Shown piece by piece: positions 2,866 to 63,723 of a stretch of DNA of 64,000 nt. How positions within the stretch are numbered: the stretch's first letter is position 1; every line of letters starts with the position of its first letter. The position numbers and the translations under genes are program-made. The notes below the pieces were generated by a model that did no database searches, was not told the origin of the DNA, and saw nothing but the letters and a program-made list of their open reading frames with translations. This DNA is from Lucinisca nassula (lineage: Eukaryota > Mollusca > Bivalvia > Lucinida > Lucinidae), in the NCBI GenBank assembly GCA_963580285.1, contig OY757020.1:99079497-99143496 (forward strand), written 5' to 3'.

Positions 2866-3139
2866 TCCGTGTGGCATAATGAATTTTTCATATCTCAAAA
2901 AGAACATTTTTTTCTGGTGAAAATATGTGATATTTTTCAGTTTTACTCCAAACATAGGTTGAGTGTGATCGTTAGAACCGCCTAATTCAGGCGGTCCTAA
3001 TGAGTTGGTCCTAACGAGTACCCACAAACCATATCTTGGAGCGGAAATAAAGAAACTGATTATATCCCATAAACCCCGCTTTTCTCTTTATAAAATGGTG
3101 TTTAGTGGGTCTTCTTTTCGCGGACTAGTTAAACTGATG
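2866..3139. repeat. Hairpin MITE, subfamily H-B
   Basis: Subfamily B has ends of the type GATAACACATCCGTGCGACA and ACGGACTTGTTCACGTGATG, but the same core hairpin as family H. Here the core is disturbed by a partial duplication (GCGGTCCTAATGAGTTGGTC). Confidence 0.75.
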
Positions 3140-3614
3140 TTCCCATTTGCTTACGGTTGTGTTAGAAATAGCAGCCGCTTCTTTTCGATGTAACCGACCG
3201 GCCACGCCCTTTCACTTCAAATATATTCATGATTACAATATTTAATAGTTTGGCCGCTACGCGTTAAAATATGCCTTCAAGCATCGACGACTTAGCGCAA
3301 CAAGCGCATGTGCGATTTTTTTTATATGATGGATATGGTTTATAAATAGACTGTGAAATTTATAGTCTAACTGTGTGGGTACCCCGGCTAATTTGAGGCT
3401 ACACTGAACGTACATGATCAACAACATCGTTTCGCTTGTCTCAGGCCACGTAATAAATATTGTAGCAAACAACAGCAATCGTATGAGGGTAGTGAGCAAG
3501 TTTTTAGCCTAGCGGAAGCTAGTAGACAGAATGTTGGCTTTACAATTGTGGGTCCAAATGTGGACAACTTTGCTGGCTATACATTACACAGTCCGCAAAA
3601 GTAAGTAGACACTT
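3140..3614. other. No feature recognised
   Basis: Non-coding stretch with no repeat end or conserved ORF that I can support. The 80-codon minus-strand ORF at 3257-3499 has no recognisable domain. Confidence 0.4.
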
Positions 3615-9400: not shown

Positions 9401-9538
9401 TCAAAACGCAGTGAGACGTGACTGCACTTTTAATTTTGGACTAGTCGGTGTTTTAGATAAGTCGCCTTCAGTTGGGATTTTACATTGGGCGATATAGTTT
9501 TACCGAGGATCGTACTGCATCATATTTCCCGGAAACAA

Positions 9539-9655
9539 GACAGTTCCCCGACAAGACAGTTCCCCGACACGGTTTTTGGAGACAGTTCCCCGACACATTT
9601 GAAGACAGTTCCCCGACACTTTTGAAGACAGTTCCCCGACACTATTGTTCATAGT
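9539..9655. repeat. GACAGTTCCCCGACAC tandem array (left)
   Basis: Five near-copies of GACAGTTCCCCGACA with short spacers. Its mirror array is at 10388-10500. Confidence 0.85.
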
Positions 9656-10387
9656 TAAATGACATGTGACTGATAATTATAGATGGCAATTAGTTCCCAG
9701 ACACTTTTAAAGACACTATTGTTCATAGTCTTAATGTACCAATTGGCAATTAGGGATAGTTGGGGATAATAAAGGCTAAGTGATCATTGTGAATAGATTA
9801 AGATACCTGTGATTTGGGGAGGCAATGTCTTTCTGTGCCGGGGAATTGTCTTAAGATATATTAGTTATTATTTGCATGTTTCTTGCTGTGGCAACTATAT
9901 ATTAATGAGTTGCCTGAAATTTCCTCGTTGATTTCAAGACAGTTCGACGACATTTATTCTGACGATGATCTGTCTGGAAGTCTAAGCCAGAGAAGAGGTA
10001 ATGTTCTTATACTTTAATAATATTAATTTAAAACAAAAACTTTGAACTCGGCTACATTTTTCAAATATTTAATATATTAGAAATATACTATTGCGTTTCC
10101 TAGAAGACATTTTTGTTTAAATGTGTGCAAGTTCATTAACTGAACATGCTAGTTCGCTTAATTTAAGGTGTAATCATTACACTTATTGATAATGGTATCC
10201 AGTATGAGCTTTCATTTTATACATGTATGAGGTCTGTCAGGGGAACTGTCTTCAAAAATGTCGATGAACACATAATTTAATATTTCTAAACGTCTGTCGG
10301 TGAATTGTCTTCAAAATATTGATGAACACATAATAACTATTGATTATGATAATCATCATGATCAGTCAAAGGTGATTTGACTTTGAA

Positions 10388-10500
10388 CAATAGTGTCGGG
10401 GAACTGTCTTCAAAAGTGTCGGGGAACTGTCTTCAAATGTGTCGGGGAACTGTCTCCCAATACCGTGTCGGGGAACTGTCTTGTCGGGGAACTATCTTGA
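10388..10500. repeat. GTGTCGGGGAACTGTC tandem array (right, inverted)
   Basis: Inverted counterpart of 9539-9655, including the outer matching flanks ACTATTGTTCA and TGAACAATAGT. Confidence 0.85.
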
Positions 10501-11619: not shown

Positions 11620-12074
11620 CATCACGAAATTTTGACCCCCTTGAACCCCACTTTTATATAGTAAAACTGGGGTTTTTGTTTGTTTGATTTGAAGTTTAAC
11701 GTCCCCGTCAACACTGTAAAGGTCATTTTGGAGACGATGCTTCCAATTTTGTGGGACTTTTACCCGACATTGAGATGAAATGACATCTCAAGCCATGCTG
11801 CCCAATGAAACCAATAGGGTTTATAAGCATGGACAGGTCCGACTCGCAACGCATGTCTGGGCAGGCTAGATCCCCTAAGCGGTTTACCAGTACTCGTGTG
11901 CGGGTCGGGGAAGCATCATGCAGCTCATCTATTTCTTCAAGCCCCGATGGGCGGGGGCTTAAAACTGAGGTTTAAAAGGGTAAACCTTATTTTTCTCATT
12001 TCTGCTCTGAAATATAGATTATGGGTACTCGTTAGAACCGCCTCGATGAGGCGGTTCTAACGAGTACCCACAAT
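11620..12074. repeat. Hairpin MITE (family H), left half, cut by the Polinton-like element
   Basis: Runs from CATCACGAAATTTTGACCCC through an intact hairpin (about 12027-12070) to CACAAT, where the large element begins. The right half resumes at 25523. A SINE A copy is also nested in it. Confidence 0.9.
11676..11960 (-). repeat. SINE family A inside a MITE
   Basis: A 13-bp target duplication, AAAACTGGGGTTT at 11663-11675 and AAAACTGAGGTTT at 11961-11973, brackets a complete SINE A copy. Confidence 0.85.
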
Positions 12075-12740
12075 AGTAGTAGTATAGGGGCCTCTTGAGG
12101 GTCAATGACGTCACAAGATGGTCGACAAAATGGCCGCCATATAAGGAAGTCGGACGACCCTGCATGACTTCGCGGGGGTGTCGTCGGATGACCCTTGATG
12201 CGGGGTTTGAGGCCTGGGTCGCTGGATGACTCTCGATGCGGGGTTTGAGACCAAGATGGCCGCCATTTTTTATCTCGTTTGACCCTCGATCACCTTGCGC
12301 AGGGTGTCGCTGGATGACGTTTTTGGATTGGGGTGACGCTTTTAGTAGAAACACCCTAGACCACAGGAAGGTAGCGTCACGTCCTACGGCACGGGGTCTC
12401 CTATATACAGGCTTATCTACAGCGTGGAGGGGTGATCCTTTTCCACTGGTGACTATCGAACATACACAGATCGGGACCGATTAATGCGAAGAATTTCTGG
12501 AAATCAAGTACGTAATCAAGGTAACGCTCTCCCGTAAGGGATTGGCCAACCTGAGTTCTAGCCTACAATGACCTTTCCTCTTTATATTGAACAAGTAGTA
12601 AGGACCGACGTCTAGGGCATAGAGACAGAATTAGTACTTGTAATCTTCTCTGCTCACATTGATATCGTTCCTGAACAGCGCTAGCGTTCTGTAACAGTCC
12701 CTAACTGATTATTCCGTACAAAAATAGATTTCGTCTTGAG
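12075..12740. repeat. Left terminal inverted repeat of the palindromic element
   Basis: Matches the reverse complement of about 24860-25522 with scattered substitutions, e.g. CCTCTTGAGGGTCAATGACG at the outer end and CGTTCTGTAACAGTCCC at the inner end. Its ORFs (e.g. 12236-12484) have no recognisable domain. Confidence 0.9.
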
Positions 12741-12742
12741 AA

Positions 12743-13336
12743 ACACGAGATTCCTTATTGCCAAAATAGATTCCTTATTGCACAAAATGAGATTCCTTAT
12801 TGCACAAAATAAGATTCCTTATTGCAAAAAATGTGATTCCTTATTGCAAAACAATGAGATTCCTTATTGCAAAAAAACGCGATTCCTTATTGCACAAAAT
12901 GAGATTCCTAATTGCAAAAAATGAGATTCTTTATTGCAAAAAAAACGCGATTATTTATTGCTCAAAATGAGATTCCTTATTGCAAAAAACGCGATTCCTT
13001 ATTGCACAAAATGAGATTCCTTATTGCAAAAAAATGAGATCCCTTATTGCAAAAAACGCGATTCCTTATTGCACAAAATGAGATTCCGTGCAAATGAGAT
13101 TCCTTATTGCAAAAAATGAGATTCCTTATTGCACAAAATGAGATTCCTTATTGCACAAAACGTGATTCCTTATTGCACAAAATGAGATTCCTTATTGCAC
13201 AAAATGAGATTCCTTATTGCAAAAAAACGCGATTCCTTATTGCACAAAATGAGATTCCTTATTGCAAAAAAACGCGAATCCTTATTGCAAAAAATGAGAT
13301 TCCTTATTGCACAAAATGAGATTCCTTATAGCAAAA
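12743..13336. repeat. Left subterminal minisatellite (GATTCCTTATTGCA)n
   Basis: About 25 units of roughly 21-23 bp, alternating GATTCCTTATTGCACAAAAT and GCGATTCCTTATTGCAAAAA types. Repetitive peptides (RFLIAQNEIPYCKK) arise in several frames and are not evidence of a gene. The mirror array is at 24268-24856. Confidence 0.95.
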
Positions 13337-13492
13337 AAAACAAAAAACAAAACAAAACAAAAAACAAACAAAAAAGCTGTGATTGACCGGGCCTTTGTTG
13401 TTAGATTAGATTTCGGCAATTGGCGTAAAGTCCGTGAGTTGCTCGACACACGAGGTCTCTATACATCGCAAGGGTCTGTTCTCTCCATTATC
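13337..13492. other. Spacer between minisatellite and PolB stop
   Basis: An A-rich run, then about 110 bp conserved in both arms (compare 24078-24195). It is probably the PolB 3' untranslated region. Confidence 0.5.
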
Positions 13493-16400
13493 TCAATAAC
13501 CGTAGGGTTCTGTATCGAAGTTATCCAACCGGCGACGTTTAGTGTACACCACCTGATAGGTTTTCTTTTCCTCCCTGTTGTACAGTTTCCTTTTCCCCTT
13601 TTCTCTACAAATTTTGTGGGGGTTGATCACGCTGATGGAAGTTTGTTCTGATGGTTCTGTAACTAAAGCCTTTACAGCGTCAGAGTTGATCAGTTGACTG
13701 TTGGCGAAATGAAGCGTGAAACCTCTCACTTTACACGTTTTATTCCCATTGTTAGTTTTATAGGCGTAGTTTTTAGGTCCTCCCGACACGAACTCCACGA
13801 TATGCTCTCTATGACCCAATTCATTCGTGAGTTCTCCGAGGTAGTCCCCTAATGGGGGGTCGTATTCTCCGGGTCTGCTCACGTAGATCACAGAGTCTGT
13901 GTCGTAGTACAGGACTTTTCTGCCCAAACGTTCGAGAACGCTATAGAGTTTGAGTCGTGCCCAACAGGTGGTAAAGGTCGCTAGGTAGATATTAGTCTTG
14001 TTGTCTTCGGGCTGACAGTCTTTTTTGTAGATCCATTCTACCTGGATCGTGTCGTTCGCCACGATATGAAAATTTTGAACTTCTTTGGTAGGGTCTGAGA
14101 GAACTTGAAAACACCCATCGACTTCTGACTCATGGAAGAAGGCGGATTGCCTGAAGTTAAGGCGTTGTCCAAACTTTCCCCAGAAACTTTTCAGACATAG
14201 TTTTGCTAAAGCTCTTAACCCCGGATTCTTTTCCAGTTTCTCTTTGTCTAGACCGACACCCTCCTTTTCTAAATATTGATTGACATATTTCTGAGTATCT
14301 TCAGGGGTCAGGATCCAATCAGGAGTGCCACTCGCTTCTTGTTTATACTTGAGGAACGTATTGATGTAAGCAGCGAAGAGTCCTCCTTCTCTACTCTGAG
14401 GGTCGTATTGAGTGGTTTCGTTCCAATGGTATACTTCGTATACTTTCAGGACTTTGTACCCTAAACTTACAGCTGTCTGTAGTTCCGGTGTAGACCAGGT
14501 CTCGGTCATGACCCTATTTTCGTCAGAGCAGACACAAGGTGACTGCGTTTCATTTTCCGCGCAGGAGCGGCACAGGGGAAACTTGAGCTTTCCATTGGAT
14601 CTAAATGGTAACACGGGATGATATAGTCCACGAGGTGGTAAAATCCGGACTTTAGCGATCCCGAAATACTCGCCGATGTCTTTAAAGTCGGAAGTTATCA
14701 CTTCTGGATGACCAACTGGATACTCGCAGTATTTGTTCACCCACGGGTAAAGACTGGTAAAGTCGACGTATCTTATCTGTTCTGATTCTTCCGTCTTGTA
14801 GTGTAACTGACTTGCGTTCGTCCGACCCCCGAAAAAGCTGTCTCTAGGATCAAGTCCGTCGGTAATGTCCAATCCCTGAAGAAACTCTCGAAGTTCCGGG
14901 TTTGTCTGACTCTGCTCGAGAAATTCGTGTTCCAAGATGCAGACGTATTTCATACCCAGACTTTCTACGTATTATTTTTCTTCATTGTCAGAGCGTAGAG
15001 CTCGCTCATGGTCTGTTGGGTTAGAGGGTGTTTCGTTTCTTCTCTGTCAGAGGGAAGACATGTCGGGCACCCGTGAAACATTCAACCGTGATATTCGAAC
15101 GCCGTATTAGTCACGTGACATTACCCGTCCAACTTATACTTGGTACCCGGGAGACGGACTTCTCCACCATTCAAAGTAGAAGTAAAACAAAGATCAGGAA
15201 TTGATACAATTAACTTACTCCACCCATAAAAGACACCAAAGGGAAAGAAATACAAACATTAAGGGACCAGACCATAATGGAAACCTAAACAAAGGAAGGC
15301 CATAAGGACAGTTACTTTCCCACAAAATGGCCATATGGCCATCCAAAACCAAAAGACACAAGTGATACACACAGTAAGTAACAAACAACAACATAAATAA
15401 ATCGCCACAGAAGAGCCGCCTTGGAACGGTCAGTGGAAGATTTCCACTGGAGGGCTTAAATCGATTTTACGTGGCCACAACCCTCGCCCTTACTTCCGTC
15501 AAAGCGTGTTGTATGGTAACGCCGTCACGACGGGACATCCATTCTAGCCACTGAATCGAGGCTTTACTCTACTGATCTATTTTATAACCACCGGGAGGGA
15601 TCTTGGCGATGGGGGACTTTACGAACACCTTTTCCTCGATGACAACCTCATCCACGGGAATCCACTAGTCGCCCCTTAAAACTATCATGCGACCGTCGAT
15701 GTACCTGGCCGGTATCCAGTCGGATTGCCCGGAGAGTTTTACTCGCCATGATTCCTCCAGGAACTTGGTTCTGTAAACGTTCATACACACCGAAGCGATC
15801 GTAACCGAGTCAAAAGGGTCTACGGCGCCCTTCCACTCGGTTTTCCCCTGTTCATTCGTCAATTTCTCGCGCGTAGCCGTCATCAGTAGTTCTCTAAACC
15901 TCAAACAGGCTTGACGAAGAATATCTACGTCACTCCGGCAGTACTGCAACATTTCTGATCTAAAATCGAAGGTGTCGTTCCGTTTGGAGCGAAGCCAGGA
16001 CATACACTCCTCTCTCGTCGCTTCCCATAAAGTCGCATCCGTAGAAATGGGGTTTAAGGTACGGTCCGACGTAGTGTTGGTTTTCCCTCGTGTTGAAGAA
16101 ATGGGGAAACCATCCTTTCTTCAGTTCTCTCAAACCGAACGCTTTGGGTAACGCCGACAGTTTCATGGGTAGGAAATTCAGACTGTCGATGACTTTGATA
16201 TGAAGATCTTTTTCTACTGCCATGTACATGAATTTTGATCCGTTGTAGCTGCTTTTGTCTGGTTTCATGGATTGGTCGATCAAGTACTCAAGTAGAAAAT
16301 AACCGTCATACCATTTCATGTTGTGCGCTACGACTTTGAAATATTGATGTTGACTGGAAAATAACCGCTTTCCGAACGTCCGGGCTGTGTCCTGTCCTTC

Positions 16401-18118
16401 GAAGACGACCTCTCGAAATCCGCAGATTCTCGGACAGGGGTTGTCTGTTTCTTTACACCCGGAACAACGAGACCCGCAGTCTTTACACAAGGATTTCGGC
16501 GTTACCGGTTTTTCGATACATTTATGGCAGGCGGAATGCGCCACCACAAAGTTGGGTCTGTGGGTGTTTTTTCCGCACCATGACGTCATACATCGTTGAC
16601 ATTTGGAACAGGAGGTACACCGCTGATTGGGTAGACAGTCGGTGCAATCGGGATTATTAACAGGGACATACCCCTCTGAACATTCTGATTTCAGGTCCTT
16701 GACATTCGATTCGTAATCTATGAATAAGTACTATGAATAAGTACTTGGGTATAAACTCAGCCTTAGCCGGTATGGCTCTCAGGTAGCACAGGTGGTCCCT
16801 CAAAACGTGTTGTTCGCAGGACGTGCAGTAAAATTCGTCACATCTGTGCTCTTCCTTTTTCCTCTTGGTGGTGTTGACTACTTTGTAACAAGTAGGACAT
16901 TTATACCACTTTTCGCATTCTGAAGGGCCCCTTGGTTTGCCTTCATTTTGACCATTCCGATAGGTGGGCTGGACGGTATGTCGCCGGTAACAGTCCATGG
17001 ACCGACAGGTCATATTACACCAGTCGCAGCTGATCGGGGTCTCCGTCTTGGGACAGTTTGACGTCTTGCACAAGATACAGGTATTGTCGCACTGGTGTCT
17101 TTCTTTGTTATTATAATGATAAAGGCATTTTTCCAACAAGTATCTGGCGCTGAAGATACTGGTAATGGCGTGAAAATGGTCGTTTTCTACGTGGTAGATG
17201 TAAATACAGGGTCGCTCGTCGGTGCTGGAACTGGTAATAAACTTGTTTCCCAGTCGAGCGCTCACCACCATCACCCGGACCTTATGTACCTCTTCAAACG
17301 CCCCTAAATCGTTCAAGCTGGCCGGTCGGTCTAACGGTACACCGGAAAGTTGACTAATGACGATCGCCAGTTTCTTCTGTTCCTTTCTGGATTTTTTTGT
17401 CAGATTGTGGTAGAAACTCTCCGGTACTTTTTTGTGTTCGAGCACCAGTTCCAAGATATTTTTAGACTTTTGGTATTTGGTCAAATTGTCCCATTCTTCT
17501 CGGGAACACTCGTGTAGTTTCGCCCACCCGACCCCGATGATGATCGTCATTGTCTATGGTGACCAGAGACCTTTTAATTTTTAGAGAATTATCGTCTCCC
17601 GGAGGCACGTGATACGTCGTCTAGCGCCGCCCTTCGGTAAGTCTATGATCCCTATAGTGATTTCGAAGCTGTCATTCACGGTCAGTTCTTGTCGACTATT
17701 CAACACCTTTTCGATGTGTTCCATCACGACCTCTACATTCAGCCTCTACATTCAGTCGATCCCAGTTTTGTAAGGGTACCACTATTGCATCCTGCAAACC
17801 GTCGTGATAAATAATGACTCGACCTAGGTCGTTTCCCGCCAAATCGCCGCGAGCCCGTTCCAGGATGTCTTAAAACAGTTGATGTAGCCCTCGACGTATA
17901 TCGATCAGCCGTTGTCCTCGATGATCTTGATGAATTTGGACTAGGAACGCACGGTCTACTGCAGCGTTCTTTGCGTAAGTCCGCTCCGATTTTTTTCTGA
18001 TGGTATACCGGAGACCTGATGGTTCGTCTCCCTGAAGAGGATTCCACTCCCCGTCTTCCGGAAGTAGACGGGAACTTTTAGCTGCTTCGTCCTCAAACGA
18101 ATTTTGTCTTGAGTTCAT
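13493..18118 (-). pseudogene. Protein-primed DNA polymerase B, left-arm copy (broken)
   Basis: Family B, protein-primed type replicative polymerase. The ATG is at 18116-18118 (MNSRQNSFEDEAAK), 53 bp from a TATA box. The N-terminal part (to about 16660) includes ENDHFHAITS and a cysteine-rich zinc-ribbon-like region. The exonuclease region at 15665-16589 shows motif II (HNMKWYDGYF near 16320) and motif III (YCRSDVDIL near 15940). The exo I DxE was not found. The polymerase region at 13493-14953 shows motif A DFTSLYP (about 14760), motif B KLCLKSFWGKFG (about 14200, with Lys where Asn is usual) and motif C YYDTDSVIY (about 13905). Frameshifts and stops lie at about 17550-17740, 16650, 15960-16000 and 15600-15665, and a 322-bp retroposon sits at 15177. 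It is therefore not translatable as one protein. The 486-codon C-terminal ORF is uninterrupted. Confidence 0.9.
15177..15498 (-). mobile_element. LINE-like family Q, 5'-truncated copy in left PolB
   Basis: The 3' end (minus strand) is TTTTACTTCTA, shared by all Q copies, with 5' truncation at GACGGAAGTAAGG. TCAAAG is duplicated at 15171-15176 and 15499-15504. The uninterrupted site is seen in the right arm near 22395 (CTTTGAATGG). Confidence 0.85.
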
Positions 18119-18170
18119 GTTGTCACGTCGAATACTATGACAATAATGCTTTTGCGAAACGCCGACCGTT

Positions 18171-18178
18171 CTTATATA
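18171..18178 (-). promoter_or_regulatory. TATA box for left PolB
   Basis: TATATAAG on the minus strand, 53 bp before the PolB ATG. The right arm has the same sequence at the same spacing. Confidence 0.65.
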
Positions 18179-18259
18179 GTGTGGTGGCTATTTTTAGAAA
18201 CAAACGTCAGATACTATAAATAGACCCATTGAACCTGTTTGAACGTGCACCCTCAATGT

Positions 18260-18940
18260 GTATTTGTATGTATGTATGGATGGATGGATGGATGGACCTT
18301 ATTTTGTGGCTCGAAATGGTTACGACCGTTGACCCACGGGTCTGGAGACGATCTCGCTCAAATAGTTTAGATGGCCATAACCTGTTCTGAATCGTCAAGG
18401 GTAAATGACCGACCCATCATGAACCTAATTTTTGACTGGGCCGTAAAAATACAATGAGTGACGATGTTGTTTCAAACTGACCGTGATTGTATATACAGTA
18501 AACTTGAGATTTACGGGGTTAAATATTGTTTTCTTATTTTACCGACATAGATTGTGGATACTTGTTTGATCGATACTTTGTTGTTAAAAATCAAAGTACT
18601 AACAGTATCTCAAATATTGAGAAAGGAAAAAATCAAAGTACTAACGGTACCTTAAATCCTAATTTAAGACATATTACATCCATCCATCCATACATACATA
18701 CAAATACACATTGAGGCGGATCATTAAACAAGGGTTTCGGGATCCCGCCTCAGTGAGGCGGCTCGTAACGCGTAAGTGTTAGGAGTTTGATAGAATAAGG
18801 TGGTCCCTCAAAGGACATGTTGTGGGTGCACGTACATGTTCAATGAGTCTATTTATAGTAACTGACGCTTGTTTCTAAAATAAAATCCTCATGAAGGTCA
18901 AACCATGAGTGAGGCTAAAAATAGTAACTGACGTTTGTTG
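18260..18940. other. Centre of the palindrome
   Basis: Unpaired centre with a smaller inverted repeat: TGTGTATTTGTATGTATG at about 18258 faces CATACATACAAATACACA at about 18696, with (GGAT)n/(ATCC)n on the two sides. It also holds fragments resembling the family H MITE (CATAGATTGTGGATACTTG at about 18545; CCGCCTCAGTGAGGCGGCTC at about 18746), so a MITE may sit at the axis. No gene is seen. Confidence 0.55.
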
Positions 18941-18959
18941 CTAAAAATAGCCACCACAG

Positions 18960-18967
18960 TATATAAG
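18960..18967 (+). promoter_or_regulatory. Upstream duplicate TATA box
   Basis: TATATAAG within a partial tandem duplication of the right promoter region (CCACCACAGTATATAAGAAC). It is farther from the ATG than the box at 19047. Confidence 0.45.
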
Positions 18968-19046
18968 AACGTGGGTGCACGTTCAAACAGGTTCAATGGG
19001 TCTATTTATAGCAACTGGCGTTTGTTTCTAAAACAAGCCACCACAC

Positions 19047-19054
19047 TATATAAG
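19047..19054 (+). promoter_or_regulatory. TATA box for right PolB
   Basis: TATATAAG 53 bp before the ATG at 19107, the mirror image of 18171-18178. Confidence 0.65.
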
Positions 19055-20520
19055 AACGGTCGGCGTCTCGCAAAGGCATTATTGTCATAGTATTCGACGT
19101 GACAACATGAACTCAAGACAAAATTCGTTGGAGGAGGAAGCAGCTGAAAGTTCCCGTCTACTTCCGTAAGACGGGGAGTGGAATCCTCTTCAGGGAGACG
19201 AACCATCAGGTCTCCGGTATACCATCAGAAAAAAATCGGAGCGAACTTACGCCAAGAACGCTACAGTAGACCGTACGTTCCTAATCCAAATCCATCAAGA
19301 TCATCGAGGAAAACGGCTGATCGATATACGTCGAGGTCTACATCAAATGTTTCAAGACATCCTGGAACGGACTCGCGGCGATTTGGCGGGAAACGACCTA
19401 GGTCGAGTCATTATTCATCACGACGGTTTACAGGATGCAATAGTGGTACCCTTACAAAACTGGGATCGACTGAATGTAGAGGTCGTGATGGAACACATCG
19501 AAAAGGTGTTGAATAGTCGACAAGAGCTGACCGTGAATGACAGCTTAGAAATCACTATAGGGATCATAGACTTACCGAAGGGCGGCGCTAGACGACGTAT
19601 CACGTGCCTCCGGGGAGACGATAATTCTCTAAAAATTAAAAGGTCTCTGGTCACCATAGACAATGACGATCAGCTGTGTATGGCGAGAGCGATCGTGGTC
19701 GGGTGGGCGAAACTACACGAGTGTACCCGAGAAGAATGGGACAATTTGACCAAATACCAAAAGTCTAAAAATATCTTTGAACTGGTGCTCGAACACAAAA
19801 AAGTACCGGAGAGTTTCTACCACAATCTGACAAAAAAATCCAGAAAGGAACAGAAGAAACTGGCGATCGTCATTAGTCAACTTTCCCATGTACCGTTAGA
19901 CCGACCGGCCAGCTTGAACGATTTAGGGGCGTTTGAAGAGGTACTGAAGGTCCGGGTGATGGTGGTGAGCGCTCGACTTGGAAACAAGTTTATTACCAGT
20001 CCCAGCACCGACGAGCGACCCTGTATTTACATCTACCACGTAGAAAACGACCATTTTCACGCCATTACCAGTATCACAGGATTCTTCAGCGCCAGATACT
20101 TTTGCGAAAAATGCCTTTATCATTATAATAACAAAGAAAGACACCAGTGCGACAATACCTGTATCGTGTGCAAGACGTCAAACTGTCCCAAGACGGAGAC
20201 CCCGATCAGCTGCGACAGGTGTAATATGACCTGTCAGTCCATGGACTGTTACCGGCGACATACCGTCCAGCCCACCTATCGAAATGGAAAAAAAATGAAG
20301 ACAAACCGAGGGGCCCTTCAGAATGCGAAAAGTGGTATAAATGTCCTACTTGTTACAAAGTAGTCAACACCACCAAGAGGAAAAAGGAAGAGCACAGATG
20401 CGGCGAATTTTACTGCACGTCCTGCGAACAACACGTTTTGAGGGACCACCTAGTGCTACCTGAGAGCCATACCGGCTAATGCTGAGGTTGTCTAACCTCT
20501 GTGCTACCTGAGAGCCATAC

Positions 20521-20615
20521 CGCCAAATCGCCGCGAGCCCGTTCCAGGATGTCTTGAAACATTTGATGTAGACCTCGACGTTTATCGATCAGCCGTTTTC
20601 CTCGATGATCTTGAG
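20521..20615 (-). repeat. Inverted internal copy of PolB N-terminal DNA
   Basis: This 95-bp block is the reverse complement of about 19298-19391, nearly identical. It lies beside a short direct repeat (GTGCTACCTGAGAGCCATAC at about 20452 and 20501) and the Q insertion. This looks like template switching. Confidence 0.85.
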
Positions 20616-20631
20616 TTAGGAGGCCTTCATT

Positions 20632-21153
20632 CTGTCTCTGGTCGGGCCCATCGGAGGCTAACTGTTGGTTTTCTTTTGCTCCAGCACTTCAGTGGTTTCT
20701 TGCTGTCGAGTCCTCACCGTTGTCTCACCTCTGTGGTTCTTTGATTTTTTGTGTTCACGGAGATGTTGCACCTTTGAGTTAGGAGGCCTTCATGCGGACT
20801 AAACAAATTATTTGTCTAAATCGCGACGGAAGTAAGGGCGAGGATTGTGGCCACGTAAAATCGATTTAAGCCCCCCAGTGGAAATCATTCCACTGACCGT
20901 TCCAAGGCGGTTCTTCTGTTGCGGTTTATTTATGGTGTTGTTTGTTACTTACTATGTGTATCACTTGTGTCTTTTTATTTTGGATGGCCATATGGCCATT
21001 TTGTGGGAAAGTAACTGTCCTTATGGCTTTCCTTTGTTCAGGTTTCCATTATGGTCTGGTCGCTTAATGTTTGTGTTTCTTTCCCTTTGGTGTCTTTGAT
21101 GGGTGGAGTAAGTTAATTTTATCGATTCCTGATCTTTGTTTTATTTCTACTTT
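20632..21153 (+). mobile_element. LINE-like family Q copy in right PolB
   Basis: Shares the 3' end (TTTTATTTCTACTT) with the other Q copies but is longer 5' than the left-arm copy. It lies at a different site in the gene, so the two insertions happened independently. A GTTAGGAGGCCTTCAT block is duplicated at 20616 and about 20778. An 84-codon ORF inside is also open in the 63-kb copy. Confidence 0.75.
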
Positions 21154-24100
21154 TTATACCCAAGTACTTATTCATAGATTACGAATCGAATGTCAAGGAC
21201 CTGAAATCAGAATGTTCAGATTGGTATGTCCCGGTTAATAATCCCGATTGTACCGACTGTCTACCCAATCAGCGGTGTACCTCCTGTTCCAAATGTCAAC
21301 GATGTATGACGCCATGGTGCGGAAAAAACACCCACAGACCCACCTTTGTGGTGGCGCATTCCGCCTGCCATAAATATATCGAAAAACCGGTAACGCCGAG
21401 ATCCTTGTGTAAAGACTGCGGGTCTTGTTGTTCCGGGTGTAAAGAAACAGACAACCCTTGTCCGAGAACCTGTGGATTTCGAGAGGTCGTCTTCGAAGGA
21501 CAGGACACAGCCCGGACGTTCGGAAAGTAGTTATTTTCCAGTCAACATCAATATTTCAAAGTCGTAGCGCACAACATGAAAGGGTATGACGGTTATTTTC
21601 TACTGGAGTACTTGATCGACCAATCCATGAGACCAGACAAAATCATCTACAACGGATCAAAAATCATGTACATGGCAGTAGAAAAAGATCTTCATATCAA
21701 AGTCATCGACAGTCTGAATTTCCTACTCATGAAACTGTCGGCGTTACCCAAAGCGTTCGGTTTGAGAGAACTGAAGAAAGGATGGTTTCCCCATTTCTTC
21801 AACACGAGGGAAAACCAACACTACGTCGGACCGTACCCTGAACCCCATTTCTACGGATGCGACTTTATGGGAAGCGACGAGAGAGAAGAGTGTATGTCCT
21901 GGCTTCGCTCCAAACGGAACGACACCTTCGATTTTAGATCAGAAATGTTGCAGTACTGCCGGAGTGACGTAGATATTCTTCGTCAAGCCTGTTTGAGGTT
22001 TAGAGAGCTACTGATGACGGCTACGGGCGAGAAATTGACGAATGAACAGGGGAAACCGAGTGGAAGGGCGCCGTAGACCCATTTTGACTCGGTTACGATC
22101 GCTTCGGCGTGTATGAACGTTTACAGAACCAAGTTCCTGGAGGAAACATGGCGAGTAAAACTCTCCGGGGAATCCGACTGGATACCGGCCAGGTACATCG
22201 ACGGTCGCATGACAGTTTTAAGGGGCGACCAGTGGACTCCCGAGGATGAGGTTGTCATCGAGGAAAAGGTGTTCGTAAAGTCCCCCATCGCCAAGATCCC
22301 TCCCGGTGGTTATAAAATAGATCAGTACAGTACAGCCTCGATTCAGTGGCTAGAATGGATGTCCCGTCGTGACGGCGTTACCATACAACACGCTTTGAAT
22401 GGTGGAGAAGTCCGTCACCCGGGTACCAAGTATAAGTTGGACGGGTACTGTCACGTGACTAATACGGCGTTCGAATATCACGGTTGTATGTTTCACGGGT
22501 GCCCGACATGTCTTCCCTCTGACAGAGAAGAAACGAAACACCCTCTAACCCAACAGACTGTGAGCGAGCTCTATGCTCTTCAATGAAGAAAAAATACGTC
22601 GTAGAAAAGTCTTGGTATGAAATACGTCTGCATCTTGGAACACGAATTTCTCGAGCAGAGTCAGACAAACCCGGAACTTCGAGAGTTTCTTCAGGGATTG
22701 GACATTACCGACAGACTTGATCCTATAGACAGCTTTTTCGGGGGTCGGACGAACGCAAGTCAGCTACACTACAAGACGGAAGAATCAGAACAGATCAGAT
22801 ACGTCGACTTTACCAGTCTTTACCCGTGGGTGAACAAATACTGCGAGTATCCAGTGGGTCATCCAGAAGTGATAACTTCCGACTTTAAAAACATCGGCGA
22901 GTATTTCGGGATCGCTAAGGTCCGGATTTTACCATCTCGTGGACTATATCATCCCGTGTTACCATTTAGATCCAATGGAAAGCTCAAGTTTCCCCTGTGC
23001 CGATCTTGCGCGGAAAATGAATCGCAGTCACCTTGTGTCTGCTCTGACGAAAACAGGGTCATGACCGGGACCTGGTGTACACCGGAACTACAGACAGCTG
23101 TACGTTTGGGGTACAAAGTCCTGAAAGTATACGAAGTATACCATTGGAACGAAACCACTCAATACGACCCTCAGAGTAGAGAAGGAGGACTCTTCGCCGC
23201 TTACATCAATACGTTCCTCAAGTATAAACAAGAAGCGAGTGGCACTCCTGATTGGATCCTGACCCCTGAAGATACTCAGAAATATGTCAATCAATATTTA
23301 GAAAAGGAGGGTGTCGGTCTAGACAAAGAGAAACTGGAAAAGAATCCGTGGTTAAGAGCTTTAGCAAAACTAGGTCTGAACAGTTTCTCGGGAAAGTTTG
23401 GACAACGCCTTAACCTCAGGCAATCCGCCTTCTTCCATGAGTCAGAAGTCGATGGGTTTTTTCAAGTTCTCTCAGACCCTACCAAAGAAGTTCAAAATTG
23501 TCATATCGTGGCGAACGACACGATCCAGGTAGAATGGATCTACAAAAAAGACTGTCAGCCCGAAGACAACAAGACTAATGTCTACCTAGCGACCTTTACC
23601 ACCTGTTGGGCACGACTCAAACTCTATAGCGTTCTCGAACGTTTGGGCAGAAAAGTCCTGTACTACGACACAGACTCTGTGATCTACGTGAGCAGACCCG
23701 GAGAATACGACCCCCCATTAGGGGACTACCTCGGAGAACTCACGAATGAATTGGGTCATGGAGAGCATATCGTGGAGTTTGTGTCGGGAGGACCTAAAAA
23801 CTACGCCTATAAAACTAATAATGGGAATGGAACGTGTAAAGTGAGAGGTTTCACGCTTCATTTCGCCAACAGTCAACTGATCAACTCTGACGCGGTAAAG
23901 GCTTTAGTTACAGAACCATCAGAACAAACTTCCATCAGCGTGATCAACCCCCACAAAATTTGTAGAGAAAAGGGGAAAAGGAAACTGTACAACAGGGAGG
24001 AAAAGAAAACCTATCAGGTGGTGTACACTAAACGTCGCCGGTTGGATAACTTCGATACAGAACCCTACCGTTATTGAGATAATGGAGAGCACAGACCCTT

Positions 24101-24267
24101 GCGATGTATAGAGACCTCGTGTGTCTAGCAACTCACGGACTATACGCCAATTGCCGAAATCTAATCTAACAACAAAGGCCCGGCCAATCACAGCTTTTTT
24201 GTTTTTTGTTTGTTTGTTGTTTTTTTTTTTGGTTTTTTTTTGTTTGTTTTTTTTGTTTTTTTTTGCT

Positions 24268-24856
24268 ATAAGGAATGTCATTTTGTGCAATAAGGAATCT
24301 CATTTTTTTGCAATAAGGAATCGCGTTTTTTTGCAATATGGAATCTCATTTTGTGCAATAAGGAATCGCGTTTTTTTTGCAATAAGGAATCTCATTTTGT
24401 GCAATAAGGAATCTCATTTTGTGCAATAAGGAATCGCGTTTTGTGCAATAAGGAATCGCGTTTTGTGCAATAAGGAATCTCATTTTGTGCAATAAGGAAT
24501 CTCATTTTTTGCAATAAGGAATCTCATTTTGTGCAATAAGGAATCGCGTTTTTTGCAATAAGGGATCTCATTTTTTGCAATAAGGAATCTCATTTTGTGC
24601 AATAAGGAATCGCGTTTGTTGCAATAAGGAGTCTCATTTTGAGCAATAAATAATCGCGTTTGTTGCAATTAAGAACCTCATTTTTTTGCAATTAGGAATC
24701 TCATTTTGTGCAATAAGGAATCGCGTTTTTGCAATAAGGAATCTCATTTTTTGCAATAAGGAATCTCATTATTTGCAATAAGGAATCTTATTTTGTGCAA
24801 TAAGGAATCTCATTTTGTGCAATAAGGAATTTATTTTGGCAATAAGGAATCTCGTG
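24268..24856. repeat. Right subterminal minisatellite
   Basis: Inverted counterpart of 12743-13336 (TGCAATAAGGAATC units), with different unit order and number. Confidence 0.95.
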
Positions 24857-25522
24857 TTTCGCAAGACGAAATCTATTTTTGTACGGAATAATCAGTTCGG
24901 GACTGTTACAGAACGCTAGCGCTGTTCAGGAACGATATCAATGTGAGCAGAGAAGATTACAAGTACTGATTCTGTCTCTATGCCCTAGACGTCAATCCTT
25001 ACTACTTGTTCAATATAAAGAGGAAAGGACATTGTAGGCTAGAACTCAGGTTGGCCAATCCCTTACCGGAGAGCGTTACCTTGATTACGTACTTGATTTC
25101 CAGAAATTCTACGCATTAATCGGTCCCGATCTGTGTACGTTCGATAGTCACCAGTGGAAAAGGATCACCCCTCCACGCTGTAGATAAGCCTGAATATAGG
25201 AGACCCCGTGCCGTAGGACGTGACGCTACCTTCCTGTGGTCTAGGGTGTTTCTACTAAAAGCGTCACCCCAATCCAAAAACGTCATCCAGCGACCCCCTG
25301 CGCAAGGTGATCGATGGTCAAACGAGATCAGAAATGGCGGCCATCTTGGTCTCAAACCCCGCATCGAGAGTCATCCAGCGACCCAGGCCTCAAACCCCGC
25401 ATCAAGGGTCATCCGACGACACCCCCGCGAAGTCATGGAGGGTCGTCCGACTTTTTTTTATGGCGGCCATTTTGTCGACCATCTTGTGACGTCATTGACC
25501 CTCAAGAGGCCCCTATACTACT
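24857..25522. repeat. Right terminal inverted repeat of the palindromic element
   Basis: Reverse complement of 12075-12740 with scattered differences. Ends CCCCTATACTACT, followed by CACCAT. Confidence 0.9.
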
Positions 25523-25622
25523 CACCATCTTTATTATGAGCAGAAATAAGAAAAAATATCACAATTTTCATTTTAAAAGTGTAAAGTTTACAATGTATTT
25601 GTATAGGCGCGTTTTCGTTATG
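25523..25622. repeat. Hairpin MITE (family H), right half
   Basis: Begins CACCATCTTTATTATGAGCA and ends ATAGGCGCGTTTTCGTTATG. It completes the MITE interrupted at 12074. Confidence 0.9.
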
Positions 25623-54227: not shown

Positions 54228-54572
54228 GGGCTTGAAGAAATAGATGGGCTGCATGATGCTTCCACGCAGAGCTGAAACCGGTCGCACACGAGCCTGCTCA
54301 GGCAAAGTGGTGCAAGCCGGGCCGTCCATGCTTATAAAAAGTAGAAGTAAAACAAAGATCAGGAATCGATACAATTAACTTACTCCAACCATCAAAGACA
54401 CCAAAGGGAAAGAAACATAAACATTATAAACCCTATTGGTTTCATTGGGCGAAAGGGCTTGAGATGTCATTTCATCTCAATGTCGGGTAAAAGTTCCACA
54501 ATGTTGGAAGCAACGTCTCCAAAATGACCCACACAGTGTTGACGGTGACGTTAAACCTCAAATCAACAACAA
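54228..54572 (+). repeat. SINE family A split by a Q retroposon fragment
   Basis: CGGGGCTTGAAGAAATAGATG to GTTAAACCTCAAATC, interrupted at 54341-54424. Confidence 0.85.
54341..54424 (-). mobile_element. LINE-like family Q, very short 5'-truncated copy
   Basis: Only about 84 bp of the Q 3' end, with TTATAAA duplicated on both sides and the SINE contiguous across it. Confidence 0.8.
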
Positions 54573-62001: not shown

Positions 62002-63161
62002 AAATGTCGTGCTTTTCACGGGATATAATCATGGGGACATTGCACAACTGGGCATTGATGCTCAGAATTGTGCTTTGTTAGACAGTGCCTGTAGTAGCAC
62101 AGTATGTGGAGAGAACTGGCTTCAGAATTATAACAGTTCTTTGAATCAGATTGATAAAGAGAGAATTAAACAGACTGTTGGAAAGCGAACATTTAAGTTT
62201 GGAGGTGGAGAAAGGCTGAGATCAAAGGGAGAGTTCAAGCTTCCAGCAGTGATTGCTGGGAAAGAGGTTTTCATTAGAACTGATGTTGTAGACTCCGATA
62301 TCCCTCTGCTATTATCACGACGAGCTATGAAAACAGCAGGGGCAAAGATGGATTTGGAAAGTGACACTGCAATGATTTTTGGAAAAGATGTTGCTTTGAA
62401 TCTAACCACATCCGGGCATTACTGCATCCCCATAGACAGGGCAGAAAAGATACTAGCTGAAGAAGTGTTTTCAGTAAAACTAGGAGAGATGAAAAGTCAT
62501 GAGAGATATGATACATTGCTCAAGTTGCATAGACAATTTGCACACCCACCACTTAAAAAGCTGAAGGCTCTAATGCAGGATGCAGGGCAATGGGAAGAGG
62601 ACTTTCAGGGAATGCTTGAAGACATAGGTAAGACATGTAATTTATGTAAACGATACATGAAAACACCACCACGTCCAGCAGTCGGTTTACTTATGGCATC
62701 AAGGTTCAATGGAAAGGTAGCCATGGATCTGAAACAGCTGAATGGACAGTGGATACTTCACATTATAGACATGTGGTCCAGATATACAGTGTCTACTTTC
62801 ATTACAAGGAAAAGGTCAAGTGATGTCATAAATGCCCTGATGCAAGGATGGATTGCAGTCTTTGGTGTAATGGAGGCAATACTGACCGACAATGGAGGTG
62901 AGTTCAGCTCTGATGAAATGCGAGAAGTGATGTCGATCTGAATGTTAGAGTCATCACCACCGCAGCTGAAAGCCCATTTCAGAATGGACTATGTGAGCGT
63001 GTCCATGCTGTAACTGACACGATGTTATTAAAGCTGAAAGAAGAAAATGGAAAAATGGACAAGCAAACATTGCTGTGTTGGGCAAATATGGCACGTAATT
63101 CGTTATCAATGTGGAATGGGTTTAGCAGTCATCAGCTAGTTTTTGGACATCATCCGAGGTA
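62002..63161 (+). pseudogene. Copia-type protease and integrase (frameshifted, truncated)
   Basis: Continues the gag frame after the SINE. Aspartic protease motif LLDSACSSTVCG near 62077. The integrase zinc-binding HHCC region follows with HRQFAHPP (about 62526) and CNLCKRY (about 62638), then the catalytic core: Asp in VAMDLKQL (about 62720) and DNGGEF (about 62889). The frame breaks at 62938, and the third acidic site lies in the next frame (SPFQNGLCERVHAV, about 62968). Protease followed directly by integrase, before any RT, is the Copia order. The element is cut at 63161 by a Q retroposon, so RT and RNase H are missing from the window. Confidence 0.85.
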
Positions 63162-63723
63162 GAAGTAAAACAAAGATCAGGAATTGATACAATTAACTTA
63201 CTCCACCCATAAAAGACACCAAAGGGAAAGAAATATAAACATTAAGCGACCAGACCATAATGGAAACCTAAACAAAGGAAGGCCATAAGGACAGTTACTT
63301 TCCCACAAAATGGCCATATGGCCATCCAAAATAAAAAGACACGAGTGATACACACAGTAAGTAACAAACAACAACATAAATAAATCGCCACAGAAGAACC
63401 GCCTTGGAACGGTCAGTGGAAAGATTTCCACTGGGGGGCTTAAATCAATTTTACGTGGCCACAATCCTCGCCCTTACTTCCGTCGCGATTTAGACAAATA
63501 ATTTGTTCAGTCCGCATGAAGGCCTCCTAACTCATCAGTGCAACATCTCTTTGAACACAAAAATCAAAGAACCACAGAGGTGAGACAACGGTGAGGACTC
63601 GACAGCAAGAAACCACTGAAATGCTGGAGCAAAAGAAAACCAACAGTTAGACTCCGATAAGCCCGACCATAGACAGAGCGTCAGGCACCAACCAACATTA
63701 TCTCTCTAACTCTCGATAAGCCT
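63162..63723 (-). mobile_element. LINE-like family Q, 3' non-coding end
   Basis: The longest Q copy. The 3' terminus TTTTACTTCTACC lies at 63162, against the Copia integrase. Matches 15177-15498, 20632-21153 and 54341-54424. All copies share this end and differ in 5' length, the signature of target-primed 5' truncation. Confidence 0.8.

Follow-up and report, generated by a model that had tools for sequence, protein, structure and literature searches.

According to the text available from PMC8097293, intact vertebrate Mavericks measure 16.9 ± 1.7 kb and have terminal repeats of 46-1447 bp; the commonest motif at their ends is (AGT)2//(ACT)2, and in most of them the modules point to the centre. 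The element described here, from the bivalve Lucinisca nassula, resembles these Maverick/Polinton elements in some features and departs from them in others. It occupies positions 12075-25522 of a 64-kb stretch of contig OY757020.1 (64,000 nucleotides, called the window below), and it is, by inverted-repeat search, arm alignment and inspection of its ends, a single palindrome with one DNA polymerase B (PolB) gene in each arm. The explanation that accounts best for the data, and is rather probably correct, is that the copy in the window, old and decayed, belongs to a palindromic, PolB-only type of satellite of a Polinton/adintovirus-like element, and that this satellite is a heritable lineage whose arms are homogenised.

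The inverted arms of the window element, 12078-18252 (6175 bp) and 18973-25522 (6550 bp), align with 5639 matches and 188 mismatches over 5827 aligned bases, i.e., 96.8% identity. Each of them comprises a terminal repeat, a 22-bp minisatellite, a decayed PolB gene that reads outward and a TATA box. The element begins with AGTAGTATAGGGG (12078) and closes with CCCCTATACTACT (25522), and one surplus AGT stands at the left end (12075-12077), the ends thus reading (AGT)n...(ACT)2. Such an extra triplet would be in keeping with protein-primed replication that starts by jumping back, as discussed in the available part of PMC8097293. When used as a query of its own genome, the left terminal repeat (12075-12740) gives 73 match rows. 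The motif TATATAA occurs at 19047-19053, with its mirror copy at 18172-18178, and a second TATATAA (18960-18966) is present on the right side only. After insertion the arms gained, at different places, private inserts of a dispersed repeat other than the host repeat at the flanks, 15173-15500 on the left and 20631-21158 on the right, with further copies at 63148-63677 and 54338-54426; these private differences argue against a mirror created by the assembly. The centre is asymmetric, with the left arm stopping and the right arm starting at different positions in the region upstream of PolB; this may reflect a separate fold-back event, or else the shared-axis form described below may have lost its central part. 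Two other readings of the interior were dropped: 18257-18713 as a nested miniature inverted-repeat transposable element, because it is mostly right-arm sequence, and the right-arm insert as a rearranged piece of PolB, because it is a dispersed repeat. The parts of the element are as follows.

12069-12074, no strand: left target duplication CACAAT, within a host repeat (end reading, host-repeat copies)
12075-12740, plus strand: left terminal repeat, begins with (AGT)3 (inverted-repeat search, end reading, own-genome matches)
12747-13338, no strand: 22-bp minisatellite at the left PolB end (repeat period 22)
13493-18118, minus strand: left PolB, outward, broken, with an open C-terminal frame of 486 codons at 13493-14953; start set by eye as the mirror of the right start (open reading frame, PF03175, protein comparison)
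15173-15500, no strand: dispersed repeat, left arm only (copies elsewhere in the window)
18172-18178, minus strand: TATA box of the left PolB (sequence reading)
18297-18680, no strand: single-copy centre, either a loop or a remnant, with an approximate inner edge; the right arm runs inward to 18296, where the left arm stops
19047-19053, plus strand: TATA box of the right PolB (sequence reading)
19107-24077, plus strand: right PolB, outward, broken, with an open C-terminal frame of 486 codons at 22617-24077; start set by likeness to the start of the L043 open reading frame (open reading frame, PF03175, protein comparison)
20631-21158, no strand: dispersed repeat, right arm only (copies elsewhere in the window)
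24259-24880, no strand: 22-bp minisatellite at the right PolB end (repeat period 22)
24860-25522, minus strand: right terminal repeat, closes with (ACT)2 (inverted-repeat search, end reading)
25523-25528, no strand: right target duplication CACCAT, 1 mismatch (end reading, host-repeat copies)

Elsewhere in the window, a ~1-kb element with inverted minisatellite ends of 16-23 bp is found at 9535-10499.

The palindrome reached this place as a unit. Both of its flanks are two parts of one host-repeat copy, and other copies in the window (56567-56358, 39280-39067, 592-787 and more) cross the site uninterrupted; the duplicated target, CACAAT at 12069-12074 and CACCAT at 25523-25528, is identical in five of its six positions. 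Seven palindromes of this genome were checked for such a duplication. Three have a perfect one (TAAGGC, GCTGAT and GTAAAC), two have one mismatch (the window and C1:70.9), and it is unreadable in C10:48, whose left end is cut off, and in C19:99.17, whose ends are not resolved. The perfect cases mean that palindromes are repeatedly the inserted form. The first-pass annotation of this DNA had described two arms of about 6 kb, each with terminal repeat, minisatellite, outward PolB and TATA box, and had taken the palindrome itself, not a later rearrangement, as what was inserted; the arms are as described and the uninterrupted host repeats and the three perfect duplications bear the insertion out, while the 6-bp duplication at the window is the imperfect one given above.

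Such palindromes recur in the genome. The host assembly (2.93 Gb) was searched with PolB DNA, and the best 40 of 196 candidates were scored, their 45 scored rows merging into 40 places. Twenty of these 40 places form ten outward (-,+) pairs: the window, C13:33.70, C2:99.20, C19:0.93, C10:85.71, C4:158.73, C320:0.41, C12:80.96, C2:39.68 and C15:34.22. An eleventh palindrome, C10:48.28 (in L036), adds one place, which brings the count to 21 of the 40 places in 11 outward twin-PolB palindromes. The other copies of this element are, then, not all ordinary one-PolB Polintons, and the question raised in the first-pass annotation, whether they include further twin palindromes, is answered by at least 10 of them besides the window. 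Five were read whole or nearly so (the window, C2:99.2, C10:85.7, C4:158 and C10:48.28), the other six as PolB pieces of 1.4-1.5 kb, three of them also at the axis. Two more palindromes were reached through the terminal repeat and stand outside these counts: C1:70.93, with C-terminal remnants of PolB, and C19:99.18, with no PolB.

The window element is 13.4 kb long; the three longest palindromes fetched measure 14.3, 16.7 and 17.0 kb and three shorter ones 3.9-9.1 kb. In C4:158 the arms are 99.76% identical over 8266 bp, and the two arms of C10:85.7 have stop-free stretches of 1367 and 1456 codons on the PolB strand, a sign that both PolB copies are coding when a palindrome inserts. The PolB genes of the window arms are 97.8% identical, compared with more than 98% in 8 of the 10 other palindromes, and the window copy is among the older ones. 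As a separate observation, the spacing of hits in C320:403231-422690 points to a tandem duplication of 5,916 bp in the left arm.

One sign of common descent comes from the axis of symmetry. A 901-bp probe was taken from the axis side of C2:99.2, and the best 40 of its 6751 candidates were scored, many of the hits being short repeats. Mirrored copies of this probe, with the same 22-bp spacing, occur in C13:33.7, C320 and C2:39.7, which have their axis (axis A) in common with C2:99.2 to ~1 bp; in C19 and C15 the probe is one-sided. The loops at axis A are 44-45 nt long and nearly identical, and two joint variants exist, each exactly common to two elements. The arms of these elements change together as well. 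Among the PolB sites (1461 bp) private to one of the four A-axis elements, 38 are changed in both arms, compared with 3 that are changed in a single arm. Mirrored private changes and a shared axis are together what one would predict for a heritable palindrome that homogenises its arms. In a single-copy relative, L074, the right stem and most of the A-loop are present and are followed by other DNA, as would be the case in a parent strand. A tRNA-Met gene directly adjoins the A-axis position there (L074:404-476); it was not taken as a mechanism.

A second axis (B) is found in C4:158 and C10:85.7, which are 99.3% alike. Their centre lies within the inverted repeats of X, a different dispersed element, which also ends in ACTACT. 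The sequences flanking X there mirror each other instead of forming a direct duplication, as would follow if a molecule with X on the upstream side of PolB had folded back inside X. Hence either palindromes formed at least twice or one of them re-formed around a new axis.

The polymerase of the A-axis palindromes is, by codon comparison, under purifying selection. The ratio of nonsynonymous to synonymous change (dN/dS) is 0.07-0.18 in all six comparisons among the four elements (p from 6e-5 to 9e-12, the pairs not being independent), and it is in the same range when their PolB is compared with that of the ordinary element C12:14.63, so part of this selection could predate the palindrome.

A PolB tree was built from 30 rows of 1461 bp: 22 palindrome arms, 5 rows taken as ordinary (one of them, C13:50.17, so labelled only from the terminal repeat on its far side) and 3 unclassified. 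The two arms of an element are sisters in 11 of 11 palindromes, with eight starred forks, one identical pair and two unstarred forks, and PolB identity between the arms of one element is 96.7-100%.

What do these palindromes encode besides PolB? The family PF03175 is matched in the PolB frames of both window arms and in L043. Compared with a close relative, P0001, the left-arm gene contains 8 in-frame stops, 1 of them within a later insert and the other 7 outside it, and runs through several frames, a rough figure because the matches overlap; the right-arm gene has 3, and 1 stop is common to both arms. The final 486 codons are open in both. The best source-named protein matches are from bivalves or from bacterial bins, which probably hold bivalve host DNA; bivalve-like PolB proteins such as P0001 and P0009 are filed under the symbiont bins Thiodiazotropha and Sedimenticola, probably through host contamination. 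Among 120 listed of 1669 PolB matches, the first virus-named one is the Rhodactis coral adintovirus, at 50% identity. The N-terminal half of PolB aligns weakly with the PolB of two adintovirus-like contigs, L001 and L003, and the Pfam OTU domain, which is of interest because an OTU-like domain at the N-terminus is a mark of adintovirus PolB, has no match in the window PolB, L043 or L003. No PolB relatives were found in viral contigs and phage records. Among prokaryote genome contigs none was found by single protein, and alignment gave four contaminant contigs that then served as gene probes.

The probes used on the window were ten non-PolB genes of L003 and three of L001. Pfam supports integrase (rve, Chromo), ATPase (PF04665), protease (PF00770), dUTPase and a TATA-binding-protein-like gene among those of L003. 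Its capsid probe ("MCP") has no Pfam or PHROG family; among its 52 relatives, 1 has PF21738 and 2 are named F54H12.2-like, which we take to be capsid-type names, making the capsid label probable only. None of the non-PolB probes matches anywhere in the window, where the PolB of the same contigs does match. Nor is there a tblastn match of the two adintovirus-like integrase probes, or a match of the ATPase, protease or (probable) capsid-type probes, in the window, C2:99.2, C10:85.7, C4:158 or C10:48. The ATPase, protease and capsid-type probes do hit L045, L048 and L050-L052, and the integrase probe matches elsewhere in the genome, so that all of them are able to work here. The initial description, two PolB genes and no other Polinton genes, thus agrees with the absence of any match to these four probe types. 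Whether other copies carry integrase, also asked at that stage, receives a mixed answer: none is matched in those five twin-PolB palindromes whose sequence was covered fully or almost fully, and a weak match to an integrase N-terminus lies in the PolB-less palindrome C19:99.17-99.18.

Ordinary relatives share the genome with the palindromes. Seven of the 19 remaining PolB places have a capsid-type match within ~15 kb: C12:14.63, C10:104.34, C10:104.01, C9:33.70, C4:133.4, C10:154.5 (beside a rearranged PolB) and C3:55.78 (via L026). L052, the capsid-bearing relative that was read most fully, has the capsid-type gene MCP at one end and PolB at the opposite end, both directed outward; a palindrome is therefore equivalent to the PolB half of such an element joined to its mirror image. 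For MCP, mirrored pairs are rare: one clear case emerged among its 40 scored places (C4:114.41); by its coordinates alone, C4:114406014-114411412 is possibly a capsid-end palindrome. L052 also has a gene for a TATA-binding-protein-like protein (2867-3403, minus strand; PF00352, E 1.1e-24), as does the adintovirus-like contig L003 (10649-11200, E 8.9e-37); such a gene may be matched to the TATA boxes of the PolB promoters. As for integrase, frames of ~355 codons were scored at 111 places of 8620 candidates, none near the palindromes by coordinates; these 111 near-equal frames (~355 amino acids) look like a recent burst of another family.

Two further elements are bounded by the same terminal repeats. 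C12:62534796-62546350, with the perfect duplication ATTAAC, has ATPase-type and protease-type matches and PolB was not found in it; C5:41420612-41432560, with the perfect duplication TCTTAC, has a capsid-type match and no PolB in the fetched part (1.84 kb unfetched). They are possibly other segments or deletion products. As capsid-end palindromes they were dropped, being mirrored over only ~0.8-1.0 kb at their ends.

How could a palindromic satellite arise and persist? A linear, protein-primed genome could fold back during strand-displacement synthesis and copy its own PolB half; the product would have two origins and two PolB ends, and would lack genes for capsid and integrase. In each round a full-length self-complementary strand would be released and snap back on itself, which would let the arms be copied or repaired against each other and so stay identical. 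Integration, with its 6-bp duplication, and possibly packaging would be done by helper proteins acting in trans, a dependence suggested by the missing integrase. After insertion the arms would drift apart, as the two long terminal repeats of a retrovirus do. In its fullest form, this amounts to a self-homogenising lineage of palindromic replicons with two polymerase copies of their own, whose arms are kept identical by full-length hairpins and which parasitise capsid- and integrase-bearing relatives in the same genome. The chances of this fuller account seem evenly balanced.

Several observations weigh against a heritable lineage. On the PolB tree the palindromes are mixed with ordinary elements, with 5 label changes of which at least 2 are forced by starred branches, and recombination or repeated origin must be invoked; the mixing could mean that palindromes arose repeatedly or that PolB is exchanged between them and ordinary elements. 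The sister forks of C10:85.7 and C4:158 are the unstarred ones, raw identity puts 5 of the 22 arms nearer to another element (the left arm of C10:85.7 and both arms of C10:48 and of C19:0.93), and the left arm of C4:158 is tied between its partner and another element. The private changes of C4:158 and C10:85.7, too few to judge by, number 1 and 1 in both arms and 2 and 4 in one arm. The decay between the window arms is not clearly neutral, at a dN/dS of 0.44 over the last 486 codons (20 nonsynonymous and 12 synonymous changes; p=0.03). The fetched portions of the ordinary relatives yielded no integrase. Finally, the shared A axis could be a fold-back hotspot at which palindromes form repeatedly, and this is the chief rival to a lineage. 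On that view ordinary Polintons produce each palindrome anew as a defective replication product, which is inserted once and leaves no lineage: there are at least two axes plus a third, asymmetric centre in the window, palindromes and ordinary elements interleave on the tree, and a new formation gives identical arms without any homogenising process. Such products are nonetheless an unlikely explanation, if one to keep in mind. Four elements have the same axis and loop, with joint variants exactly common to pairs, which still leaves room for a hotspot; C4:158 and C10:85.7 are 99.3% alike around one axis; and, in the 2.5 kb fetched from the upstream side of PolB in C12:14.63, an ordinary element, the A sequence nearest to the axis is not matched along its length, pieces alone matching at 67-84%. 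The first-pass annotation had offered a choice between a PolB-only palindromic lineage and an inverted dimer that was formed in replication and then inserted, and each is partly right: the palindrome was the inserted form, four elements share axis and loop, as a lineage would, and the second axis indicates that formation occurred again.

Another possibility is a multipartite Polinton-like virus in which the palindromes form the PolB segment and the capsid and packaging genes lie on other segments, under the same terminal repeats. C12:62.5 and C5:41.42, bounded by these repeats, with perfect duplications and no PolB in the fetched sequence, are what one would expect of such segments; yet elements with both a capsid-type gene and PolB exist, and the PolB-less ones are degraded and may be deletion products, which makes a multipartite virus quite improbable. 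Mirror artefacts do occur in long-read assemblies, and this is the ground for asking whether the window merely holds an assembly or library artefact, or an inverted duplication made after insertion. Hardly any weight can be given to this idea in view of the 188 substitutions and the private inserts that separate the arms, the host flanks that join at an empty site, and the 10 further cases, in which three checked ones have perfect outer duplications.

If the palindromic satellite reading is true, it adds a new genome architecture to the world of Polintons and adintoviruses, namely a capsid-less palindromic satellite that keeps its polymerase, has made many insertions and has that polymerase under selection. 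As the arms are identical at the start, each copy would carry its own clock, and the formation, spread and decay of the family could be dated. It would also make fold-back replication, and hyperparasitism among the virus-like elements of animals, open to test in a concrete case. Among the papers listed by a literature search, judged by titles and the beginnings of abstracts and with subscription papers mostly outside it, none is on palindromic or twin-PolB Polintons.

Comparison with known systems shows likenesses as well as differences. Like Maverick/Polinton elements, as the available text of PMC8097293 describes them, the palindromes have a 6-bp duplication, (AGT)2//(ACT)2 ends, a PolB predicted to be of the protein-primed type and a similar total size (13.4-17.0 kb for the window and the three longest palindromes). 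Unlike them, they have two PolB genes each, their PolB reads outward, no integrase, ATPase, protease or capsid-type match was obtained in the five read whole or nearly so, and their arms (6.2-6.6 kb in the window, 8.3 kb in C4:158) far exceed the 46-1447 bp that the same text gives for terminal repeats in vertebrates. They would work like a helper-dependent Polinton derivative, and they are not classed as Polintons because integrase, capsid-type genes and terminal-repeat length all differ. With adintoviruses, as far as the accessible part of PMC11071296 describes them, they share a PolB whose first virus-named match is the Rhodactis one; they differ in giving no match to the hexon-type probe (its label being probable) or to the chromodomain integrase when read whole or nearly so.

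Two more distant systems are also instructive. Palindromic defective adenovirus genomes have duplicated left ends; in them, a linear protein-primed genome has been cut down to a mirrored end and depends on a helper. The clam palindromes have such a mirrored end, and unlike those genomes they are inserted in chromosomes in many copies, have kept their own polymerase gene and are apparently heritable. The giant palindromic ribosomal DNA minichromosomes of ciliates resemble them as inherited giant palindromes with identical arms; they consist of cellular ribosomal DNA, whereas the Lucinisca nassula palindromes are mobile and virus-like.

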